Below are positions 3,473 through 34,643 of a stretch of DNA of 64,000 nt, piece by piece. Source of the DNA: Acidobacteriota bacterium (GTDB taxonomy: Bacteria > Actinomycetota > Acidimicrobiia > Spongiisociales > UBA5794); assembly GCA_022562055.1 (NCBI GenBank), contig JADFQA010000015.1:1-64000 (forward strand). Direction: 5' to 3'. A model generated the notes under the pieces. The model made no database searches. It saw nothing but the letters and a program-made list of their open reading frames with translations, and was not told the origin of the DNA. The translations under genes and the position numbers were made by a program. Each line of letters starts with the position of its first letter. The first letter of the stretch is position 1.

Positions 3473-3485
3473 GCATGCATCGCAC

Positions 3486-3537
3486 ACAACCTTTCGGTTG
3501 TTTACAACCCTTCGTATGTAAACAACCGAAAGGTTGT
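3486..3537. promoter_or_regulatory. 52-bp perfect palindrome, operator of the XRE gene
   Basis: Two perfect 21-nt arms (3486-3506 and 3517-3537) flank a 10-nt centre. Each arm itself contains the smaller dyad ACAACC-TTTC-GGTTGT, so there are two nested operator sites. It lies 13 bp upstream of the XRE start and presumably overlaps its promoter. In a transcript it could form a long hairpin, but there is no T-run. Confidence 0.75.
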
Positions 3538-3614
3538 GCGCCTTCCCTGGGGTCCGGCAACCACTCTGACGAGAACTTCCCGGCGCTTGACCATCGACGG
3601 TGGTGTGTCCCGAC

Positions 3615-3732: not shown

Positions 3733-4020
3733 TCAGTTCATGTCGACAAGAGTCCACTCAAGTCGCTTGCCGAGGACGGCGGCCATCTTCGCCACGGTCG
3801 ACAATCGCACATCCACGTCCCCGCTCTCGGCCCGAGCGATCTGAGACTGCGAAGTCCCCGCGGCGGCGGCGAGTTTCGTCTGCGACAGCTCCGCTGCGAT
3901 CCGAGCTTCGGCCAACTCTCGCATGAGCAGTCGTTGGTCGAGCGCTGCTTGGACCTTTTGGGGGAAGGTCGGGTCCTCCAACGTACTCTCTCTAACAATG
4001 TCATCGAGGAAATCGGACAT
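3733..4020 (-). CDS. higA: HigA-type XRE antitoxin, 95 aa
   Basis: A small DNA-binding antitoxin expected to neutralise HigB and repress the operon. An N-terminal segment (MSDFLDDIVRESTLEDPTFP) precedes a helix-turn-helix at residues about 45-68 (LSQTKLAAAAGTSQSQIARA, then ESGDVDVRLSTVAKMAAVLG). It follows the toxin gene by 70 bp, the usual toxin-first higBA order. The gap holds a dyad at 4041-4058. A decayed copy of this gene's 3' end is present at 506-588. Confidence 0.85.
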   Translation of the reverse strand: MSDFLDDIVRESTLEDPTFPQKVQAALDQRLLMRELAEARIAAELSQTKLAAAAGTSQSQIARAESGDVDVRLSTVAKMAAVLGKRLEWTLVDMN

Positions 4021-4090: not shown

Positions 4091-4456
4091 TCAAGACCGT
4101 GAACGTGATCTCCAGTCTCGTAGACGCTGCTCGGCTAGCAGAATGTCGCGCCCAGGCACGGTTCGGGTCTTCTTCACAATGGCATGTATGGCCAGGAGAA
4201 CCTGCTCGGACTTGCCCTCAGTCGCATAGAGGATGCGATACTGCCGTCGGTTTGCCCGTGCCCTGACCTCGTAAATGTCGCCTCTGAGGTGATGGGCAAC
4301 CGCGTTGCCATGGACTCTCACATCCTTCATGGCCGCTGCAACGGCAGCTCTATCATCCAAAGGGAGACCCATGATGAACTCTTTGACGGGGGATCGGCCA
4401 AAACTCGTGCGATAGTCGCGCCATCGGCGTCGGGCGCGGCGTGGAGGAGTCTGCAT
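4091..4456 (-). CDS. higB: HigB/Gp49-like RelE-superfamily toxin, 121 aa
   Basis: Likely a ribosome-dependent mRNA interferase. The core reads GRSPVKEFIMGLPLDDRAAV, then HHLRGDIYEVRARANRRQYR, ILYATEGKSEQVLLAIHAIV and KKTRTVPGRDILLAEQRL. This is the standard order of phage-derived Gp49/HigB proteins: LxGdiyElR, YRilya, llLhaFvKKt and a C-terminal helix. The length is typical. The start at ATG 4456 has a weak GAAAG ribosome site. It precedes higA on the same strand and all elements appear intact. Confidence 0.85.
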   Translation of the reverse strand: MQTPPRRARRRWRDYRTSFGRSPVKEFIMGLPLDDRAAVAAAMKDVRVHGNAVAHHLRGDIYEVRARANRRQYRILYATEGKSEQVLLAIHAIVKKTRTVPGRDILLAEQRLRDWRSRSRS

Positions 4457-4900: not shown

Positions 4901-5116
4901 ATGAGCACAGTCGATATCCGCGAGGCGAAGAACAATTTGTCACGGTTGTTGCGTAGGGTTCCGGCAGGCGAGGAGATCACAATTACACGTTCCGGCGAAT
5001 CGGTAGCAAAACCTTGTCGCAGTCGTTCCAGTGACGGGTCAGCGCCAATGCGTTGCCGCGGGTGAGGTTACCGACGACTTCGACGATCCCCGATGGGGTG
5101 AGCCTGCTGATTGGGC
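4901..5116 (+). pseudogene. Frameshifted Phd/YefM-type antitoxin
   Basis: From ATG 4901 the frame reads MSTVDIREAKNNLSRLLRRV followed by PAGEEITITRSGESVAK, a textbook Phd/YefM antitoxin N-terminus. It then runs into PCRSRSS and stops at 5065. Removing one C from AAAACCTTG (about 5008-5013) restores LVAVVPVTGQRQ and a typical acidic tail GEVTDDFDDP in the next frame. That compensated frame has no stop before the AbiEi-like gene at 5202. The partner toxin is absent. A sequencing error at the C-run is possible. Confidence 0.75.
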
Positions 5117-5153
5117 GAGTCGGTGGAGGTCAGTCGACGAAAAGTACCTAGAT

Positions 5154-5197
5154 AATACCTCAATATTGCGGTATAGTTCACGACGCGGTGAGGTATT
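5154..5197. promoter_or_regulatory. Operator with inverted half-sites upstream of abiEi-like gene
   Basis: AATACCTCA (5154-5162) and TGAGGTATT (5189-5197) are perfect inverted repeats 26 bp apart, with another GGTAT half-site between them at about 5170. The right half-site ends 4 bp before the ATG at 5202. AbiEi proteins are known to bind inverted repeats in their own promoters, and the placement here fits that. Confidence 0.6.
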
Positions 5198-5201
5198 GAT
5201 A

Positions 5202-6227
5202 ATGACTGATGTATTAGACGCTCGGATTGCCGGCCCCGACCGTATCGCGGTCAGGGTTGCTGAGGCGATTCGTGCCGTGCTGCCGTCCTCGGTGTCGGTA
5301 CGGGCGGCGAGAACCGAGGCAACGGTAGTTAACCTCGTTGTCAACGAGCAACACCTCACCGTCCGTTGGGTACGCGAAGGGTGGTTACGGGCGATCCAAG
5401 AGGTGCTCGACACGGAAACTCCTTTGCCCGACATTGTTGTGTCACGCAGGATGGGACCCGCCTCGCGCGACGCGCTGTCAGCGGCCGGTGTCGGGTGGGT
5501 TGATGAGACGGGGGCCGCCGAAGTGGTTGTGGGTCCGCTGATCGTCTCTCGAAGCGGATCTCCTGAGCACAAGAGAACGCCCCGTTGGACACGATCGGTG
5601 CTGGCCGTTGCAGAAGCCTTGCTGTGTGGCTCAAAGGCGACGGTCACAAGCATGGGTGACGCGACAGGGTTGTCGACCGGTACGTGCACCAACGCGCTGC
5701 GCTTGCTTTCCGACCTCGAGCTCCTTGAGGCATCTTCACCTCGGGGGCGCGGCTCGGCAAGGCGCGTGAGCGACGCGACGGACCTTCTGGCGGCGTACGT
5801 TGAGGAGGCCCAGTCGCTGGTCCGGCCTGTGTCACTACAGGTCGGGGTGACATGGCAGGACTCGGTCTCCGGGTTGGCGGGCATCGGCAAAACATGGGAT
5901 GTTCTCGGGACCGACTGGGTGGCCAGCGCTCAGGTGGCAGCGGCAGTGATGGCACCGCTGCTCACATCGGTGAGGATGGCCATCGTCTACGTGGATGCTG
6001 ACACTGTCCCAAAGCTTGTGGCTGTTGCCGGCCAGGTCGGGCTGCGCCCTATCGAGGGTGGAAGATTGACGCTCGTCCCGTTCCCAACGGTCACCACGCA
6101 AAGGCTTTCCTCCACTGTTCAGAGCCTCCGGGTAGCGCCCTGGCCGCGGGTATTTGTGGACCTTCAGATGTCGGGTGTGCGTGGGGAAGAGGCCGCGGAG
6201 CATCTTCGCGAGGTATTCAATGGCTGA
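5202..6227 (+). CDS. AbiEi-like antitoxin/transcriptional regulator, 341 aa
   Basis: The start ATG 5202 (MTDVLDARIAGPDRIAVRVA) was chosen over the longer frame because the extra residues belong to the frameshifted Phd tail and the operator. The N-terminal part carries LSAAGVGWVDETGAAEVVVG, the xGhxYhDxtGnh motif of AbiEi-like antitoxins. A winged-helix follows at about 185-235 (ATVTSMGDATGLSTGTCTNA, LRLLSDLELLE). The C-terminal half is an alpha/beta domain typical of the group. It is expected to repress the operon and counter the toxin encoded immediately downstream. Confidence 0.75.
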   Translation: MTDVLDARIAGPDRIAVRVAEAIRAVLPSSVSVRAARTEATVVNLVVNEQHLTVRWVREGWLRAIQEVLDTETPLPDIVVSRRMGPASRDALSAAGVGWVDETGAAEVVVGPLIVSRSGSPEHKRTPRWTRSVLAVAEALLCGSKATVTSMGDATGLSTGTCTNALRLLSDLELLEASSPRGRGSARRVSDATDLLAAYVEEAQSLVRPVSLQVGVTWQDSVSGLAGIGKTWDVLGTDWVASAQVAAAVMAPLLTSVRMAIVYVDADTVPKLVAVAGQVGLRPIEGGRLTLVPFPTVTTQRLSSTVQSLRVAPWPRVFVDLQMSGVRGEEAAEHLREVFNG

Positions 6228-6271
6228 CGACACTCCCCGCTCTCGGGCTTGCCGGGGCCGCGGAAACGGCG

Positions 6272-7054
6272 TTGGTGCGGGTCGTACATCACTATGGCGC
6301 GCGTCCGGAATTCGTTGTCCTTGGTGGTCTCGTCCCTGAGCTGTTGTGCAGCAACAGTGCGTTCCACCATGCCGGCGCCACCGACGTCGATGTGCAGGTA
6401 GACCTTGAGATTGCGTGTGGATCGGTGAACACCGTTCGTCTGGAGTCGGCCCTACGCAATGCCGACTTCGTTCCTAGCGCTGACAAGGTATGGCGTTGGC
6501 AAGCTCGCGGCGGCTCGGCGGGAGTGATCGTCAAGTTTGAACTACTGGCTGATCTCGACTACTCGCCGTCGGAAGCCACGATCGCGTTCGATGGGTGCGA
6601 CGACCTCGGCGCCCTCAACCTGCGCGGCACCGGGTTCGCCGCTGAAGATGTCGTCGTTCTTTCACTCGCAGCCCACATCGACGGAGTTCGCTACGACATT
6701 GAGGTCAATGTCACCGGCCTCGCCGGATTTCTTCTGGCCAAGACCGCCGCTGCGTACTCGCGGCGTTTGCCCAAGGACTGGTACGACATTGCGTTCGTGC
6801 TTCTCCACAGCAACCGAGGTGGGCCACATGCCGCTGGGAGGGAGGTGGTCGATCGCTTTGGTGATGCTCTGCGCGGCTCCGTCCGAACGGCCCTGGGTGA
6901 CCTTGTTGCGAATTTTGAGACTCCGAGCGCCCAAGGCTCGCAGGCCTACGTGTCTCAGATCGCACAAGACCACCCCGAGATAGGGGCGGCAGAGGCGGCC
7001 GCAGATGCCGTAGCTGCGGTGCGCGAGTTTCATGCGACAGTGCTTCCGGAGTGA
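6272..7054 (+). CDS. AbiEii-like nucleotidyltransferase toxin
   Basis: A nucleotidyltransferase-fold protein: PEFVVLGGLVPELL supplies the GG motif, GATDVDVQVDLEI the DxD metal site, and KDWYDIAFVLLH a late motif common in AbiEii-like toxins. Such enzymes are proposed to transfer nucleotides to RNA targets. The recognisable N-terminus (LGLAGAAETALVRVV) extends upstream of the TTG at 6272 in the same frame. The only good ATG, at 6220 overlapping the end of the AbiEi gene, is one base out of frame, so the gene may carry a 1-nt insertion near 6229 or start inefficiently at TTG or GTG. Confidence 0.7.
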   Translation: MVRVVHHYGARPEFVVLGGLVPELLCSNSAFHHAGATDVDVQVDLEIACGSVNTVRLESALRNADFVPSADKVWRWQARGGSAGVIVKFELLADLDYSPSEATIAFDGCDDLGALNLRGTGFAAEDVVVLSLAAHIDGVRYDIEVNVTGLAGFLLAKTAAAYSRRLPKDWYDIAFVLLHSNRGGPHAAGREVVDRFGDALRGSVRTALGDLVANFETPSAQGSQAYVSQIAQDHPEIGAAEAAADAVAAVREFHATVLPE

Positions 7055-7154: not shown

Positions 7155-8279
7155 TCAGAACTCGATGACTTGGCGGAGGGCTTCGCCGTCGGCGAGGCGG
7201 TCTAGGGCGGCGTTGATGTCGCCGAGTTGGATGTGGTGTGAGATCAGCTTGTCGGTGGGGAGGTGGCCCTCCCGGTGTAGTTGGATGAAGCGGGGGACAT
7301 CACGTTGGGTGACACACGATCCGAGATAGCTTCCTTGGATCGTGATTCCCCTCGCAACCAGAGGAGCGAGGCCGAGGTTATGAGACACACCCGGGCCCGG
7401 CAGGCCGAGCGTCGTCACCGTGCCACCCCGGCGCACCAGGCTCACGGCAAGGTTGAAACCCTCCAACGTGCCCGACGCTTCGATGGCGTGATCGACACCG
7501 CCCGGCGCCAAGTCTGCGACACGGCCCGGGGTCGCATCATCCGCCACCACGACATCGGTGGCGCCGAGCGACATCGCCGCTGCAAGCTTGTCCTCAAGCC
7601 GGTCGATCGCGACGACGCGACCCGCACCTGCAACCTTGGCGCCGAGGATCGCCGAGAGGCCAACCGCCCCCAGACCCACGACCGCCACCGACTCGCCCTC
7701 AGTAACCCCGGCGGTGTTCAGCGCGGTCCCCGCACCACACAACACGGCGCATCCGAAGATACAGGTATCGGCCGCCGCGAGACCCGCCGGCACCCTCACC
7801 GCTGACGCCTCGGCCACCAGCGTGTACTCGGCAAATGCCGCCACGCCCATGTGATGATGGATCGGTTCACCGTCGAGCGTGAGGCGGGTACCTCCGGTGA
7901 GTAGCTCACCCTTGTTGTTCGCTGCCACCCCGACGTCGCATAACCATGCCTCGCCGCTGCGACAGCGGACACAGCTTCCGCACTGGGGGAGATACACGAG
8001 CACGACATCGTCGCCCGGTACCAGGCCCGCGACCTCCGGTCCCACGGCCGCGACGGTCCCCGCAGCCTCGTGGCCGATCACCATCGGCAGTGGCCACACC
8101 CGTGCCCCCGTCACCACCGACAGATCGGACCGGCACAGGCTCGCAGCCCCAACCTTGACGAGAACCTCCCCGAGCCCCGGATCGGGGAGTTCAAGTTCGA
8201 CGATCTCCAGCGGTCGAGACTCGCCATAGGGGCGTGCCAACCCAGCCTCGCGCAGCACGGCCCCACGAAACCTGGTCAT
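7155..8279 (-). CDS. Zinc-dependent alcohol dehydrogenase, 374 aa
   Basis: A medium-chain dehydrogenase. It has the catalytic zinc region CRSDLSVVTG and GHEAAGTV, the structural zinc cluster CGSCVRC...C around residues 95-110, and a Rossmann motif (VAVVGLGAVGLSAILGAK). Late residues QGSYLGSCV and the 375-aa length fit the class III/NDMA-type branch of actinobacterial dehydrogenases; substrate unknown. Start ATG 8279 follows AGGGG; the adjacent GTG at 8282 is an alternative. A decayed partial copy lies at 14505-14800, and both copies sit beside a vapB sequence. Confidence 0.85.
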   Translation of the reverse strand: MTRFRGAVLREAGLARPYGESRPLEIVELELPDPGLGEVLVKVGAASLCRSDLSVVTGARVWPLPMVIGHEAAGTVAAVGPEVAGLVPGDDVVLVYLPQCGSCVRCRSGEAWLCDVGVAANNKGELLTGGTRLTLDGEPIHHHMGVAAFAEYTLVAEASAVRVPAGLAAADTCIFGCAVLCGAGTALNTAGVTEGESVAVVGLGAVGLSAILGAKVAGAGRVVAIDRLEDKLAAAMSLGATDVVVADDATPGRVADLAPGGVDHAIEASGTLEGFNLAVSLVRRGGTVTTLGLPGPGVSHNLGLAPLVARGITIQGSYLGSCVTQRDVPRFIQLHREGHLPTDKLISHHIQLGDINAALDRLADGEALRQVIEF

Positions 8280-8455
8280 CACAGAGCCCCTGCGTTGGGT
8301 TCAACGGTCATCATCAACAGTGTGGCACATCGAACCCCACCGTTCTTGTGCCGCTTAAGGGGAATAATTCTGTCGAAGCGTCACAAGAACGGGATAGTGC
8401 CGGCGGTGGCCGGAATATGATTGCATTACGACTGTGATGCTTGCATAATGCATGC

Positions 8456-8540
8456 ATGGCTACATCCATCACCATAAGAAACGTTCCGGACGACACCAGG
8501 GACGAACTGGCGGCCAGAGCGGCGAGGAGCGGTGCGGTCG
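8456..8540 (+). pseudogene. Truncated vapB-like antitoxin
   Basis: ATG 8456 begins MATSITIRNVPDDTRDELAA then RAARSG, identical at protein level to the first 26 residues of the intact VapB at 14849. After about 8535 the sequence diverges, the expected RSLQEYLR segment is lost, and no VapC follows. The upstream DNA (GCATAATGCATGC) is also shared with the other copy. The frame continues into unrelated sequence overlapping the end of the minus-strand aminotransferase. Confidence 0.75.
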
Positions 8541-8626
8541 CCTGGATCGTTGGCCGAGGATTACCTGCTCTCGTCAGTGCGTGCCAGAGCAGCACAGCAG
8601 CGGTACCAGCTGGTGGTCCGCGTCGG

Positions 8627-9712
8627 CTAACTGATAGCGGCTGCGAGTACAGCCATGTCTTCGTGGGTGTTGTAGAGATGGACGGAGATCCGCAATTTTC
8701 CAGCACGTATCGACGCCTTGATTCCCTCGCGGGTGAGGGCGCTCATAGCCGCTTCGGGGTCCTCTAGGTCAATCGATACGATCGGGGAGCGGTTAGGAGC
8801 GTCGAATGGAATCGTGAATCCTCTCGACTCGAGGTCATCGATCAAGACCCTACCGTGCGTTTCAATGGATTCGATCCCAACGCTTTCTATGATCCTCAGA
8901 CCTTCGATGTTGACGATGGGGTCGAACCACGGGACGGAGTCATCAAGTTTGCTCGCAGTCGTCGAGAGTTCGATCGTCGGCCCGTAGAAACTCTCCATTG
9001 GTCGGGCGGCTGCTTTCCATCCCGGCGTGATCGGCACGAAGGAGTCGTGCAGCTCGGGGCGCACGTACAGATGTCCCATGCCACGCATCCCAAGGATCCA
9101 CTTGTGGCTGCAGCTGAAGAGGGCGTCGATTCCGTCAATGTCGATTGCGATACTCCCAAACGCTTGGGATGCGTCGATGACAAGCCAGGCCTCCGCTTCG
9201 GCGGCCTGTGTCTTGAGGGCGGCGAGGTCGATTCGAAACCCCGTTGCCGACTGAATCAGTGAGGTCGCGATGACCGCGGTATGACTGTCGATCTTTGTGG
9301 CGAAGGCGTCGGCTGAGAGAACGCCGTCCGTGTCCTTTACGAGACGGATTTGGTACCCTCGGTCTTGAAGCAGCATCCATGGGACGAAGTTTGAAGCGAA
9401 CTCGTGTTCAGGGACCACGATGTTGGCACCGTTCACCCCCGGTGGAAGTTGCGCTGCAACGGTCGAGGCACCGCCGCTCACGCCGGTTACGAACGCTATG
9501 TCGTCAGGGGAGACCTGCAACTGCGAGGCCACCAACGATCGAAGGTCCTCAGCAACACCCTCCGCCTGGACCCAGTCAAAGGCACCGGCCTGCCACCGCT
9601 CTAGTGCGGATACCAGTGCCTGAGATCCCGGGAGGTTGCCAAGCGCCATCGAAGCGGTGTTCAAGTACACACCACTAGCCGCACCCGGAAACCATGAGGC
9701 TACGTCGATCAC
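8627..9712 (-). CDS. Class V aminotransferase family protein, 361 aa
   Basis: A PLP-dependent fold type I enzyme of the cysteine desulfurase/isopenicillin epimerase group. Visible motifs are FVTGVSGGASTV in the phosphate-binding region, WLVIDASQAFGSIAIDID with the PLP-interacting Asp, and FSCSHKWILGMRG carrying the Schiff-base Lys. The C-terminal RAGKLRISVHLYNT is typical of selenocysteine-lyase/epimerase relatives. The start is GTG 9712 (MIDVASWFPGA). No conserved cysteine loop of a true desulfurase is evident, so the substrate is open. It stands between a vapB remnant and recQ. Confidence 0.8.
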   Translation of the reverse strand: MIDVASWFPGAASGVYLNTASMALGNLPGSQALVSALERWQAGAFDWVQAEGVAEDLRSLVASQLQVSPDDIAFVTGVSGGASTVAAQLPPGVNGANIVVPEHEFASNFVPWMLLQDRGYQIRLVKDTDGVLSADAFATKIDSHTAVIATSLIQSATGFRIDLAALKTQAAEAEAWLVIDASQAFGSIAIDIDGIDALFSCSHKWILGMRGMGHLYVRPELHDSFVPITPGWKAAARPMESFYGPTIELSTTASKLDDSVPWFDPIVNIEGLRIIESVGIESIETHGRVLIDDLESRGFTIPFDAPNRSPIVSIDLEDPEAAMSALTREGIKASIRAGKLRISVHLYNTHEDMAVLAAAIS

Positions 9713-9880: not shown

Positions 9881-11926
9881 TCACGATCTTCCGGCGTCGG
9901 CTAGGGCGAAGGGGTAAACCGCTGTTGCGCCTGCTTGCAATATCAGATTGCCGATGACCGTTAGGGTCCAGCGCGACTCAACAATGTCGTCGACCAGCAG
10001 AACCGGGCCTTCCGGCACTCGGCCAACATCGAAACTATCGAGCACGTTTCTTGCCTGCTGATAGCTGTTGTGCATCTCGCTTTGAGGTGGACCCTCGGCC
10101 ACACGTTTCACAACGTCAACAAACTCAATGCCCAGGCCATCTGCGAGGCGGGCAGCGAAATCGACGACCTCGTTATGCTCACCTCGGTTCGGCACGGCGG
10201 TCACCCACTGCGGGAACGGACGTGGTGACCACTTGCGGATGAGGTCAACCGCTGCAGTCACCAACTCGTCGTCGAACCGGCCGGTGTGGTTCTTGCCGAC
10301 CTGGACGAGCTCGCCCCAGCCCGGGTCGCCGTATCGTGCCAGCGCATGGCCCTCCTCGATGCGATACTTCCGCAGGTTGAGGCGTGGAAACGAACCGGGG
10401 GATTGTTTGCGAGGTTCGATCACGATCGGTTGCAGACGGATGAAATCGTGAGCTACCGCAATCAGCGACCGATCAACGGTGGCATCGAGCGGATCGTCAA
10501 CGCAGTTCGCACACCGACCACAGTCTTCCGCCTCGTCGTCGAGCTCCGATCTCAGAAACGCCATCAGACATTCATCGGTAGCGACATACCGGGCCATTGC
10601 CTGCTGCTCAAGCCTGCGGTTTGCGTTCACTGCCTCGACCCGCTCGCTGGGATACGCCCACTCGGTGGCCGAACGAAACCACTTGCTGCCCTCGCGGTGC
10701 ACCGCCATCTCGATCTCAAGAAGCTTGAGCGTTGCATCCATGCGACTCGGCTGCATGTTCACCTGCTGCGCCAGCGCACCTCGTGTGGTGCCATTCGCCT
10801 CTGCAAGCGTCTCAAGGATTGTTGTTGTGATCTCCTCAGAAGGAAACGCCGTCTCGATGAAGTAATCCTGGATACGCACGTCCTCTGCACCTGACAACGC
10901 CACGCCGTACGCCACATCGACCGCCCTCCCGGCGCGCCCAACCTGCTGGTAGTACGCAATCGGCGAACCGGGCACCTGGAAATGGATCACAAACTGGATG
11001 TGCGGGTTGTCGTACCCCATGGCAAGCGCAGACGTCGCAACCACCACTTTGAGCGTGTTCGCCGACAGGCGGTGCTCGATATCGAGCCGGTCCTCGGTCT
11101 CGCTCTGCCCCGTATACACCGCAGCGTCGACACCCTGACTCTTCAAGAAACGGGTGACACGCTTGGCGTCGGTGATGGTGAGGGCGTACACAATGCCGGC
11201 ACCTGGGAGCGTTGGGATCGTCTTTGCCAACCACGCCATGCGCTCTGCCTTGTTTGGCATATCAATCACTTGGAGGCGGAGGCTGGGGCGGTCGAGCGTG
11301 CCCCGAATGACCACAAGGTCGGATCCCAACTGTTCCTCAATGTCGGCCACGACTCGGTCGTTTGCCGTTGCGGTGGTTGCCAGCACCGGTGTCGTTGGCG
11401 GGAGCGACGCAACGACACCCTGCAACCTGCGGTAGTCCGGTCGAAAGTCGTGACCCCAGTCTGAAATGCAGTGCGCTTCGTCGATGACGAGCAACCCCAG
11501 TCGGTCCAGCAAGTCTGGGAGAATGTCGCTCCTGAACGTCGGGTTGTTGAGCCTCTCGGGTGAGATCAACAGCAGGTCGATCTCGTCGTTGTCGATCGCG
11601 GCAAATACCTCTGTCCAGTCGTCCCTGTTGCTCGAATTCACCGTTTCTGCGTTGAGATCGAGTCGTGCCGCAGCCTCGACCTGGTTACGCATCAACGCCA
11701 GCAGGGGAGACACGATCACGGTGGGCCCGGTGCCGCCGGCTCGCAGAATCTTGGTCGCAATAAAGTACACCGCTGACTTCCCCCAGCCCGTGCGTTGCAC
11801 CACAAGCGCCCTGCCTCCGCGTGCGGTCACGGTTTCGATCGCCTCAAGCTGACCCGGATGGAACGTCGCCGACGGGTTTGCAGTGAGGTCCCCGAGTAGT
11901 GCAACCGGGTCGAGCTGAGTGTTCAT
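9881..11926 (-). CDS. recQ: RecQ-family DNA helicase with C-terminal phosphoribosyltransferase domain, 681 aa
   Basis: Start ATG 11926 (MNTQLDPVALLGDLTANPSA) is preferred; the upstream extension is Arg-rich and unlike RecQ. Helicase motifs are present: GWGKSAVYF (I), VIDEAHCISDWGHDFRPDYR (II), LATTATAN (III) and YYQQVGRAGRA (VI). A zinc-binding Cys set follows (CLMAFL...CGRCANC). From about residue 540 a separate domain ends in GPVLLVDDIVESRWTLTVIG, a PRPP-binding motif of type I phosphoribosyltransferases. RecQ-PRTase fusions are known in actinobacteria, but their role is unclear. The RQC wing appears replaced. Confidence 0.85.
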   Translation of the reverse strand: MNTQLDPVALLGDLTANPSATFHPGQLEAIETVTARGGRALVVQRTGWGKSAVYFIATKILRAGGTGPTVIVSPLLALMRNQVEAAARLDLNAETVNSSNRDDWTEVFAAIDNDEIDLLLISPERLNNPTFRSDILPDLLDRLGLLVIDEAHCISDWGHDFRPDYRRLQGVVASLPPTTPVLATTATANDRVVADIEEQLGSDLVVIRGTLDRPSLRLQVIDMPNKAERMAWLAKTIPTLPGAGIVYALTITDAKRVTRFLKSQGVDAAVYTGQSETEDRLDIEHRLSANTLKVVVATSALAMGYDNPHIQFVIHFQVPGSPIAYYQQVGRAGRAVDVAYGVALSGAEDVRIQDYFIETAFPSEEITTTILETLAEANGTTRGALAQQVNMQPSRMDATLKLLEIEMAVHREGSKWFRSATEWAYPSERVEAVNANRRLEQQAMARYVATDECLMAFLRSELDDEAEDCGRCANCVDDPLDATVDRSLIAVAHDFIRLQPIVIEPRKQSPGSFPRLNLRKYRIEEGHALARYGDPGWGELVQVGKNHTGRFDDELVTAAVDLIRKWSPRPFPQWVTAVPNRGEHNEVVDFAARLADGLGIEFVDVVKRVAEGPPQSEMHNSYQQARNVLDSFDVGRVPEGPVLLVDDIVESRWTLTVIGNLILQAGATAVYPFALADAGRS

Positions 11927-12109
11927 GCCCCGGACGCTAGCCCGCCTCTGTGACACCGATGCCAGGACGCCCCCGCGGCTACGGTGGCGTCGTCGATGTG
12001 TGGGCGCGGGTCTTGGCTTCGGTGTAGCCAATTTTTCGGTGCGCGAAAAGTTAGGACGCGTGGGGGTTCCCTATTGAAGTAGTGGCGCGTATGGTGAAGA
12101 GACATCGAT

Positions 12110-14367: not shown

Positions 14368-14405
14368 TCCCCGGTCTTGTCTCTGGACTTCGGCCCGCTT
14401 GTCGG
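14368..14405. repeat. Left copy of a 38-bp direct repeat
   Basis: The core GGTCTTGTCTCTGGACTTC (14373-14391) is shared exactly with 15517-15535. Over 38 bp only four positions differ from the right copy. The two copies bracket the dehydrogenase remnant plus vapBC. Confidence 0.75.
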
Positions 14406-14504: not shown

Positions 14505-14800
14505 CGGCAGTAACAGCGTGTACTCGGCAAACGCCGCCACGCCCATGTGGTGATGGATCGGCTCCCCGTCGAACATGAGATGGGTACCTCCATTGAGCAG
14601 CGCACCCAGATTGTTCGCCGCAACCCCGATGTCGCTCATCCACGCCTCGCTATTGCGGCATCTGACACAGGTGCTGCACTGTGGGGGGATAGACGAGCAG
14701 GAAATCGTCACCCGTCCCAGATTCGTGACTGCTGGCCCCACATCCGAGACGGTCCCGGCAGCCTTTCGGCCGATCGCCTTCGGCCACACCCGTGCCCAGA
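14505..14800 (-). pseudogene. Decayed internal fragment of the zinc alcohol dehydrogenase
   Basis: This minus-strand stretch aligns over about 290 bp with the intact gene at roughly 7820-8110. It retains the structural zinc region CSTCVRCRNSEAW and the segment DIGVAANNLGALLNGGTHLM, then DGEPIHHHMGVAAFAEYTLL. Both ends are missing: no catalytic-zinc N-terminus and no Rossmann domain. The frame runs into unrelated sequence on either side. It therefore cannot encode an active enzyme. Its placement next to vapB mirrors the intact gene next to the vapB fragment at 8456. Confidence 0.85.
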
Positions 14801-14831
14801 GGCCGGTTTGTGGTTGCAATATGACTGTGTA

Positions 14832-14848
14832 GCATGCATAATGCATGC
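14832..14848. promoter_or_regulatory. Near-palindrome just upstream of vapB
   Basis: GCATGCATAATGCATGC is palindromic except for its centre and ends one base before the vapB ATG at 14849. A related GCATAATGCATGC precedes the truncated copy at 8456. It is a good candidate for the VapB/VapBC autorepression site. The overlap with the start implies a very short leader. Confidence 0.5.
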
Positions 14849-15085
14849 ATGGCTACTTCCATCACCATAAGAAACGTCCCGGACGACACCAGGGACGAGC
14901 TGGCGGCCAGGGCGGCCAGGAGCGGTCGATCGCTTCAGGAGTACCTGCGGGGCGAGATGATCGAGCTCGCCAGAACACCCGACATTGAAACACTTGCGGC
15001 ACGTGTCGAAGCACGAAAACGTGTGTCTGGCACGACGCTCTCGGCCGAGAAGATCGTCGAACTTCGAGACGCGGCTCGCAGGTGA
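14849..15085 (+). CDS. vapB: VapB antitoxin (ribbon-helix-helix type), 78 aa
   Basis: MATSITIRNVPDDTRDELAA begins a FitA/RHH-type domain: an N-terminal strand (SITIRNVP) then two helices with RSLQEYLRGEMIELA. The C-terminal tail (LRDAARR) would bind VapC. The second in-frame ATG (14849) is chosen because the first (14834) lies within the palindrome and is not conserved in the other copy. It overlaps vapC by four bases (GTGA). Confidence 0.85.
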   Translation: MATSITIRNVPDDTRDELAARAARSGRSLQEYLRGEMIELARTPDIETLAARVEARKRVSGTTLSAEKIVELRDAARR

Positions 15086-15480
15086 CGATCGTTGTCGATG
15101 CATCGGTAGTAGTCGCCGCGTTCGTCGACTCCGGGCCCGGTGGGCAGTGGGCTCTCGAGCAGTTGAGGCGAAGTCGCCTGGCAGCCCCCCACCTGATGCC
15201 TGTGGAAGTAGCAAGTGTGTTGCGGCGTGGAGAGTCGGCCGGTGACCTGTCGTCCGATGCGGCGGCGCTCGCCCACGCTGACGTTGTGGATCTGCCCGTG
15301 AAGCTGTTTCCCTACGAACCCTTTGCGCAGAGGATCTGGCAGCTACGCAAGACAGTCACGTCATACGATGCCTGGTACGTCGCGCTTGCCGAGGAACTCG
15401 ATGCGACCCTGCTCACGCTGGATGCGCGATTGCCGGGCGCTCCCGGCCCGCGGTGCCGCATCGAGACACCACCGTCCTGA
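15082..15480 (+). CDS. vapC: VapC PIN-domain toxin, 132 aa
   Basis: A PIN-domain endoribonuclease. The N-terminal strand MTIVVDASVVVAAF carries the first acidic residue, PVEVASVLRR the Glu in the middle, and TSYDAWYVALAEELDATLLT then LDARL the C-terminal acidic pair. Length is typical and all acidic sites look intact, so the toxin should be active and controlled by VapB encoded immediately upstream. Translation probably re-initiates at the GTG at 15082 inside the vapB stop. Confidence 0.88.
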   Translation: MTIVVDASVVVAAFVDSGPGGQWALEQLRRSRLAAPHLMPVEVASVLRRGESAGDLSSDAAALAHADVVDLPVKLFPYEPFAQRIWQLRKTVTSYDAWYVALAEELDATLLTLDARLPGAPGPRCRIETPPS

Positions 15481-15511: not shown

Positions 15512-15549
15512 TCCCTGGTCTTGTCTCTGGACTTCAGCCTGCTTGACGG
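15512..15549. repeat. Right copy of the 38-bp direct repeat
   Basis: Same orientation as 14368-14405, with GGTCTTGTCTCTGGACTTC exact and four mismatches over 38 bp. It starts 32 bp after the vapC stop. The repeated unit is not obviously an IS end. Confidence 0.75.
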
Positions 15550-34603: not shown

Positions 34604-34643
34604 AGCGAGAAGAACCTCCGCCGAAGCAGAGGTTCTTCTCGCT
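34604..34643. terminator. 15-bp perfect stem-loop downstream of the 5'-nucleotidase
   Basis: AGCGAGAAGAACCTC and its exact complement flank a 10-nt loop. It begins about 40 bp past the minus-strand nucleotidase stop. No long U-run, but the stem is strong and lies between two genes of the same strand. Confidence 0.6.

Follow-up and report, generated by a model that had tools for sequence, protein, structure and literature searches.

Gene content of the two sites

Two places in the window (the whole stretch of 64,000 nucleotides analysed here) carry all or part of a zinc dehydrogenase gene on the minus strand beside all or part of a vapB antitoxin gene on the plus strand (Table 1). They are called copy 1 and copy 2 below, and lie 6.4-6.7 kb apart on a single 66.6-kb contig. 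A first-pass annotation had described an intact dehydrogenase with a vapB cut after 26 codons at 7.2-8.5 kb and an intact vapBC with a 290-bp dehydrogenase scrap at 14.5-15.5 kb, in these orientations and with the string GCATAATGCATGC at both sites. This description holds, the scrap being 284 bp long.

Table 1. Coordinates of the features at and around copy 1 and copy 2
Feature	Position	Strand	Remarks
Zinc-binding alcohol dehydrogenase (MDR family), complete, copy 1	7155..8282	-	PF08240 and PF00107
Block A, copy 1	7818..8107	+	Within dehydrogenase; 79% to 14514-14797
Stretch present in copy 1 only, 300 bp	8108..8407		Dehydrogenase N-terminus, leader, palindrome
53-bp near-palindrome, degraded family member	8340..8392		Dispersed in sister genomes; ssDNA fold z = -4.9
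Block B, copy 1	8408..8541	+	vapB promoter/operator (putative) and first 26 codons
vapB -10/operator region (putative) with start codon, motif GCATAATGCATGC	8440..8458	+	Variants at the same place elsewhere
Unrelated DNA joined to broken vapB	8542..8626		No vapBC similarity above shuffles
Left direct repeat beside copy 2	14368..14405	+	89% to 15512-15549
Dehydrogenase scrap (block A), copy 2	14514..14797	-	284 bp, cut at both ends, indels, frameshifted
Block B, copy 2	14801..14933	+	vapB promoter/operator (putative) and 5' end of vapB
vapB, complete, copy 2 (predicted FitA-like ribbon-helix-helix antitoxin)	14849..15085	+	PF22513, E 5e-12; ORF 14834-15085
vapC, complete, copy 2 (predicted PIN-domain toxin)	15082..15480	+	PF01850, E 1e-12
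Right direct repeat beside copy 2	15512..15549	+	89% to 14368-14405

The dehydrogenase of copy 1 likely starts at the ATG at 8279 and is complete: it is full length with both Pfam domains, ADH_N and ADH_zinc_N, as in zinc-dependent medium-chain alcohol dehydrogenases generally, and 374 of 375 residues align with the orthologue of G007, a relative from another genus, at 83% identity. The nearest curated models are those of the mycothiol-dependent formaldehyde dehydrogenase and NDMA-dependent alcohol dehydrogenase families, against which the enzyme scores 266 and 265 bits, well below the equivalog/subfamily cut-offs of 513 and 440. Within the stretch common to both copies, it differs from the G007 gene at 10/96, 8/97 and 51/97 of the first, second and third codon positions, respectively, which points to purifying selection on the copy 1 gene. 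The leader is homologous to that of G007 up to 8329, where the match (L010) stops. Because the full gene and this leader both stand at copy 1, it would be the older dehydrogenase, and copying would have run from copy 1 to copy 2.

The pair at copy 2 is predicted to be a VapBC type II toxin-antitoxin. Both ORFs are complete, with the antitoxin upstream of the toxin and an overlap of 4 nt (15082-15085). VapB is 78% identical to its counterpart in G007 and VapC is 70% identical over 117 aa. By inspection of the translation, VapC has the acidic residues that are conserved in PIN active sites (in VVDAS, VEVAS, YDAWY and TLDAR; the equivalents in G007 are VVDAS, VEVAS, YDAWY and TLDRR). The FitA-like ribbon-helix-helix antitoxin, the PIN toxin, the 4-nt overlap and an operator-like palindrome at the start codon are all shared with the VapBC/FitAB modules, among which the intact copy is unremarkable; at copy 1, only 26 codons are left as a relic.

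This relic (8456-8533, plus strand) encodes a protein identical to the corresponding part of copy 2. The BLAST alignment to copy 2 stops at 8541, following a 1-nt gap, and the DNA past the break reaches a score of 19 against vapBC, matched by 172 of 500 shuffles; it leads into the 3' end of a class V aminotransferase gene (8627-9712, minus). Continuation of vapB by a frameshift past codon 26 was considered. The resulting 32-aa peptide, VRSPGSLAEDYLLSSVRARAAQQRYQLVVRVG, has no Pfam or NCBIfam match and no similarity above that of shuffles, and the end of the relic is thus a true break.

A second decayed toxin-antitoxin repeat lies at 506-571, where the last 22 codons of an HTH (HigA-like) antitoxin stand alone, with 87% DNA identity to the intact counterpart, a pair at 3733-4020 and 4091-4456 (minus). 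Two adjacent genes at 5031-7054 (plus) have no match in Pfam, NCBIfam or PADLOC, are also adjacent in the congener G002 (L181, 47-66% identity), and in their order recall, as an impression only, a two-gene AbiE-like module. The gene at 9881-12031 (minus) encodes a RecQ-like helicase with a C-terminal phosphoribosyltransferase region, and it matches the PADLOC model PsyrT over nearly its full length (E 1e-255).

Homology between the two sites

What the two sites share is contiguous DNA and not short motifs only: block A aligns at 79% identity over 291 columns (E 4e-63) and block B at 88% over 134 columns (E 2e-41), values that rule out chance. The blocks measure 290 and 134 bp in copy 1, and are colinear and on the same strand at both sites. 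A global alignment shows that the homology is split in two because copy 2 is without the 300 bp that separate the blocks in copy 1, and it shows nothing at copy 2 that matches the final ~660 bp of the dehydrogenase. The exact dehydrogenase-vapB junction is not common to both copies, so that the contiguity of the two parts across it is inferred from their order and orientation. No third copy of the repeat was found in the 2.93-Mb assembly. Strain variants collapsed during assembly are an unlikely source of the two copies, since these are only 79-88% identical.

In a tree of the dehydrogenase fragment, copies 1 and 2 are sisters with 99% bootstrap support, and the copy 2 branch is long and holds nearly all of the change. 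The two vapB copies likewise have 5 silent differences between them, and 17-20 differences of any kind from the close homologues L018, L111 and L119. In both parts of the repeat the copies are thus mutual closest relatives, and the segmental duplication proposed by the first-pass annotation is upheld.

The shared string GCATAATGCATGC, which had been taken as part of the evidence, does not contribute to it, because the same motif, exact or varied, occupies the corresponding position at vapBC loci in other genera and families (for example L018, L111, L113 and L019). It contains CATAAT about 6 nt 5' of the ATG, within a near-palindrome, and is most simply read as the putative promoter/operator of vapB, the transcript of which is probably leaderless. 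Many vapB genes of this kind can be expected to have such a motif. The case for duplication rests on blocks A and B.

Relatives, age and origin of the pairing

Three measures of neutral divergence between the copies are available: 25/95 (0.26) at the third positions of the dehydrogenase, 9/48 (0.19) upstream of vapB and 5/26 (0.19) at the third positions of vapB. The values for scrap, promoter and vapB (0.19-0.26) agree and would fit one event, the junction of the blocks being lost in copy 2. Third-position divergence to G007 is about 0.53, which makes the duplication younger than the split from that lineage.

None of 80 dehydrogenase loci, examined in most cases with flanks of up to 6 kb, adjoins vapBC, and no vapBC locus of the order adjoins the dehydrogenase within flanks of about 1.5 kb. 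G007 carries both genes, on different contigs, and two congeners have no close homologues of either. Since the genes are adjacent in no relative examined, their pairing is most likely peculiar to this lineage and older than the duplication; no genome in the pre-duplication state was found among these relatives. In a search intended to polarise the two sites, synteny was found at 12.1-13.5 kb with G002, and at 16.9-21.1 kb and 9.9-11.9 kb with G006, and none of these stretches spans copy 1 or copy 2.

This distribution bears on the idea that each site independently acquired its combination of an unrelated dehydrogenase scrap with a mobile vapBC promoter/operator module. The start of block B about 48 bp upstream of vapB, at the promoter edge, would suit such a module, as would the recurrence of the operator motif at other vapBC loci. 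It is nevertheless extremely improbable, given that order, strand and side are alike in both copies, that both parts are sisters with similar neutral divergence, and that the pairing is absent from every relative examined.

Copy 2 is flanked by imperfect direct repeats, the exact core of which occurs at these two places only in the whole genome and which were not seen in the relatives' loci examined. They may be the target duplication of an insertion, with a divergence that suits the age of the blocks, or else the remains of a further tandem copy. The former agrees with an origin of copy 2 by horizontal transfer from a related lineage with the same gene pairing, where repeats of this kind, now 10-16% divergent, would be expected at its borders. 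The mobility of vapBC modules (PMC2701414) and the two congeners that are without close homologues of both genes also favour transfer. We nonetheless regard it as decidedly unlikely: the computed chance of a random insertion landing as near to copy 1, within 7 kb, is about 0.5%, the pairing is seen in no other genome examined, and no plasmid record contains the repeat block. The sole plasmid match is a 99-bp piece of the query (868-966, in the 3' part of vapC) on one Mycobacterium plasmid. Local duplication of toxin-antitoxin genes is known from the COG2880-PIN clusters of Archaeoglobus fulgidus, where PIN toxin-antitoxin genes are duplicated in tandem or locally (PMC2701414). Unlike those clusters, the unit duplicated here takes in part of an unrelated metabolic gene.

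Probable order of the losses

The codon positions of the two relics behave differently. Between the vapB copies, differences number 0/26, 0/26 and 5/26 at positions 1, 2 and 3, and between the scrap and the copy 1 dehydrogenase 14/94, 15/94 and 25/95. The latter counts are roughly those expected when one lineage is neutral and the other constrained. Their 1:1:2 pattern is noisy, with P 0.04 when position 3 is compared with positions 1 and 2. Taken together, positions 1 and 2 differ at 0/52 sites in vapB and at 29/188 in the scrap (Fisher P 0.001). Had the copy 1 vapB been dead throughout, 5-7 changes would be expected at these positions, and zero has a probability of 0.0007-0.006; at the 5% level it would have been dead for at most about half of the time since the duplication (0.44-0.62 according to the rate used), a signal of selection that comes from 26 codons in a very conserved stretch.

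These counts suggest that the scrap has been dead from about its birth, since positions 1 and 2 are not spared, and that copy 1 lost its vapBC later, since its vapB is clean at the same positions. The last 660 bp of the dehydrogenase are not found at copy 2, and the simplest reading is accordingly that the scrap was probably truncated by the duplication itself. A local duplication, with the scrap truncated at or near birth and the vapBC of copy 1 lost later, is in our judgement the likely history. A vapBC module would have come to sit divergently beside a zinc dehydrogenase gene in this lineage, and a segment from inside the dehydrogenase through vapBC would then have been copied to a site about 6.5 kb off. 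The dehydrogenase part of the new copy, being truncated, would have been dead at or soon after birth and free to drift neutrally, and a deletion of 300 bp in the new copy would also have reached the edge of the vapB promoter. For some time vapBC may have worked at both sites, until a single later break cost copy 1 its entire vapC together with the distal two thirds of its vapB. That loss was probably harmless, the vapB of copy 2 supplying the antitoxin and the toxin gene having gone simultaneously. Loss of vapB alone would leave a toxin without a check from its own partner; the disappearance of vapC as well, and the intact antitoxin at copy 2, would make the loss tolerable.

The first-pass annotation had instead seen reciprocal decay, in which the whole dehydrogenase-vapBC segment is duplicated intact and one gene of each copy then decays. 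It is correct, and speaks for this reading, that in each copy one unit is now complete and the other survives as a relic; the symmetrical decay of two complete pairs is not borne out. The 3' 660 bp of the dehydrogenase are without trace at copy 2, the scrap carries about its full neutral load while the copy 1 vapB has no change at positions 1 and 2, so that the losses appear asynchronous, and nothing in the data calls for a second dehydrogenase that was complete. True reciprocal decay is therefore considered unlikely. The further claim, that the repeat reveals which partner is retained, cannot stand as a general rule, this being a single case with staggered losses.

A palindrome family in the copy-1-only stretch

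The near-palindrome between the dehydrogenase leader and block B reads CCGTTCTTGTG...CACAAGAACGG and belongs to a family of the form CCGTTCTTGTGACG ... CGTCACAAGAACGG, with an AT-rich centre that is variable and mostly self-complementary. Of these near-perfect 53-bp palindromes there are 33 copies in the congener G002 and several in G001 (loci of these two genomes include L175, L184, L200, L229, L232, L234 and L236), and one degraded copy here; at the pattern used, the remaining 47 family genomes have no copy. The arms covary (for example CTTGTGACG/CGTCACAAG versus CTCGTGACG/CGTCACGAG), and pairing often reaches into the locus-specific flanks: over the 8 positions that follow, 48% are paired where about 25% would be expected, and some copies pair over 9-12 bp in a row. 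It is as if the element sat in the middle of a hairpin or terminator. Nearly all copies are intergenic according to a simple ORF caller. The family is genus-restricted and REP- or MITE-like. Rfam gave no matches in 4-18 kb, the palindrome included, and a literature search found nothing pertinent; this is possibly an undescribed element of that type. Further self-inverted repeats in the window lie at 3482-3541 (60 bp, 83%) and 34604-34643 (40 bp, 85%).

Implications

The remnant of vapB could be more than debris if it were kept as a regulatory site, with the VapBC of copy 2 binding the operator at copy 1. We think this very doubtful; if true, the stub would be an exapted operator and the divergent dehydrogenase gene would be coupled to toxin-antitoxin status. 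The 53-bp palindrome may merit more follow-up than the duplication, and may be the more novel of the two. The duplication itself is toxin-antitoxin turnover of an ordinary kind, and its host is an uncultured bacterium resembling Acidimicrobiia. Under the favoured history of local duplication and later loss at copy 1, it would provide a readable example of a toxin-antitoxin module lost without penalty while a second copy still supplies the antitoxin, and of how the sequence of losses in a decayed repeat can be worked out by counting differences at each codon position.
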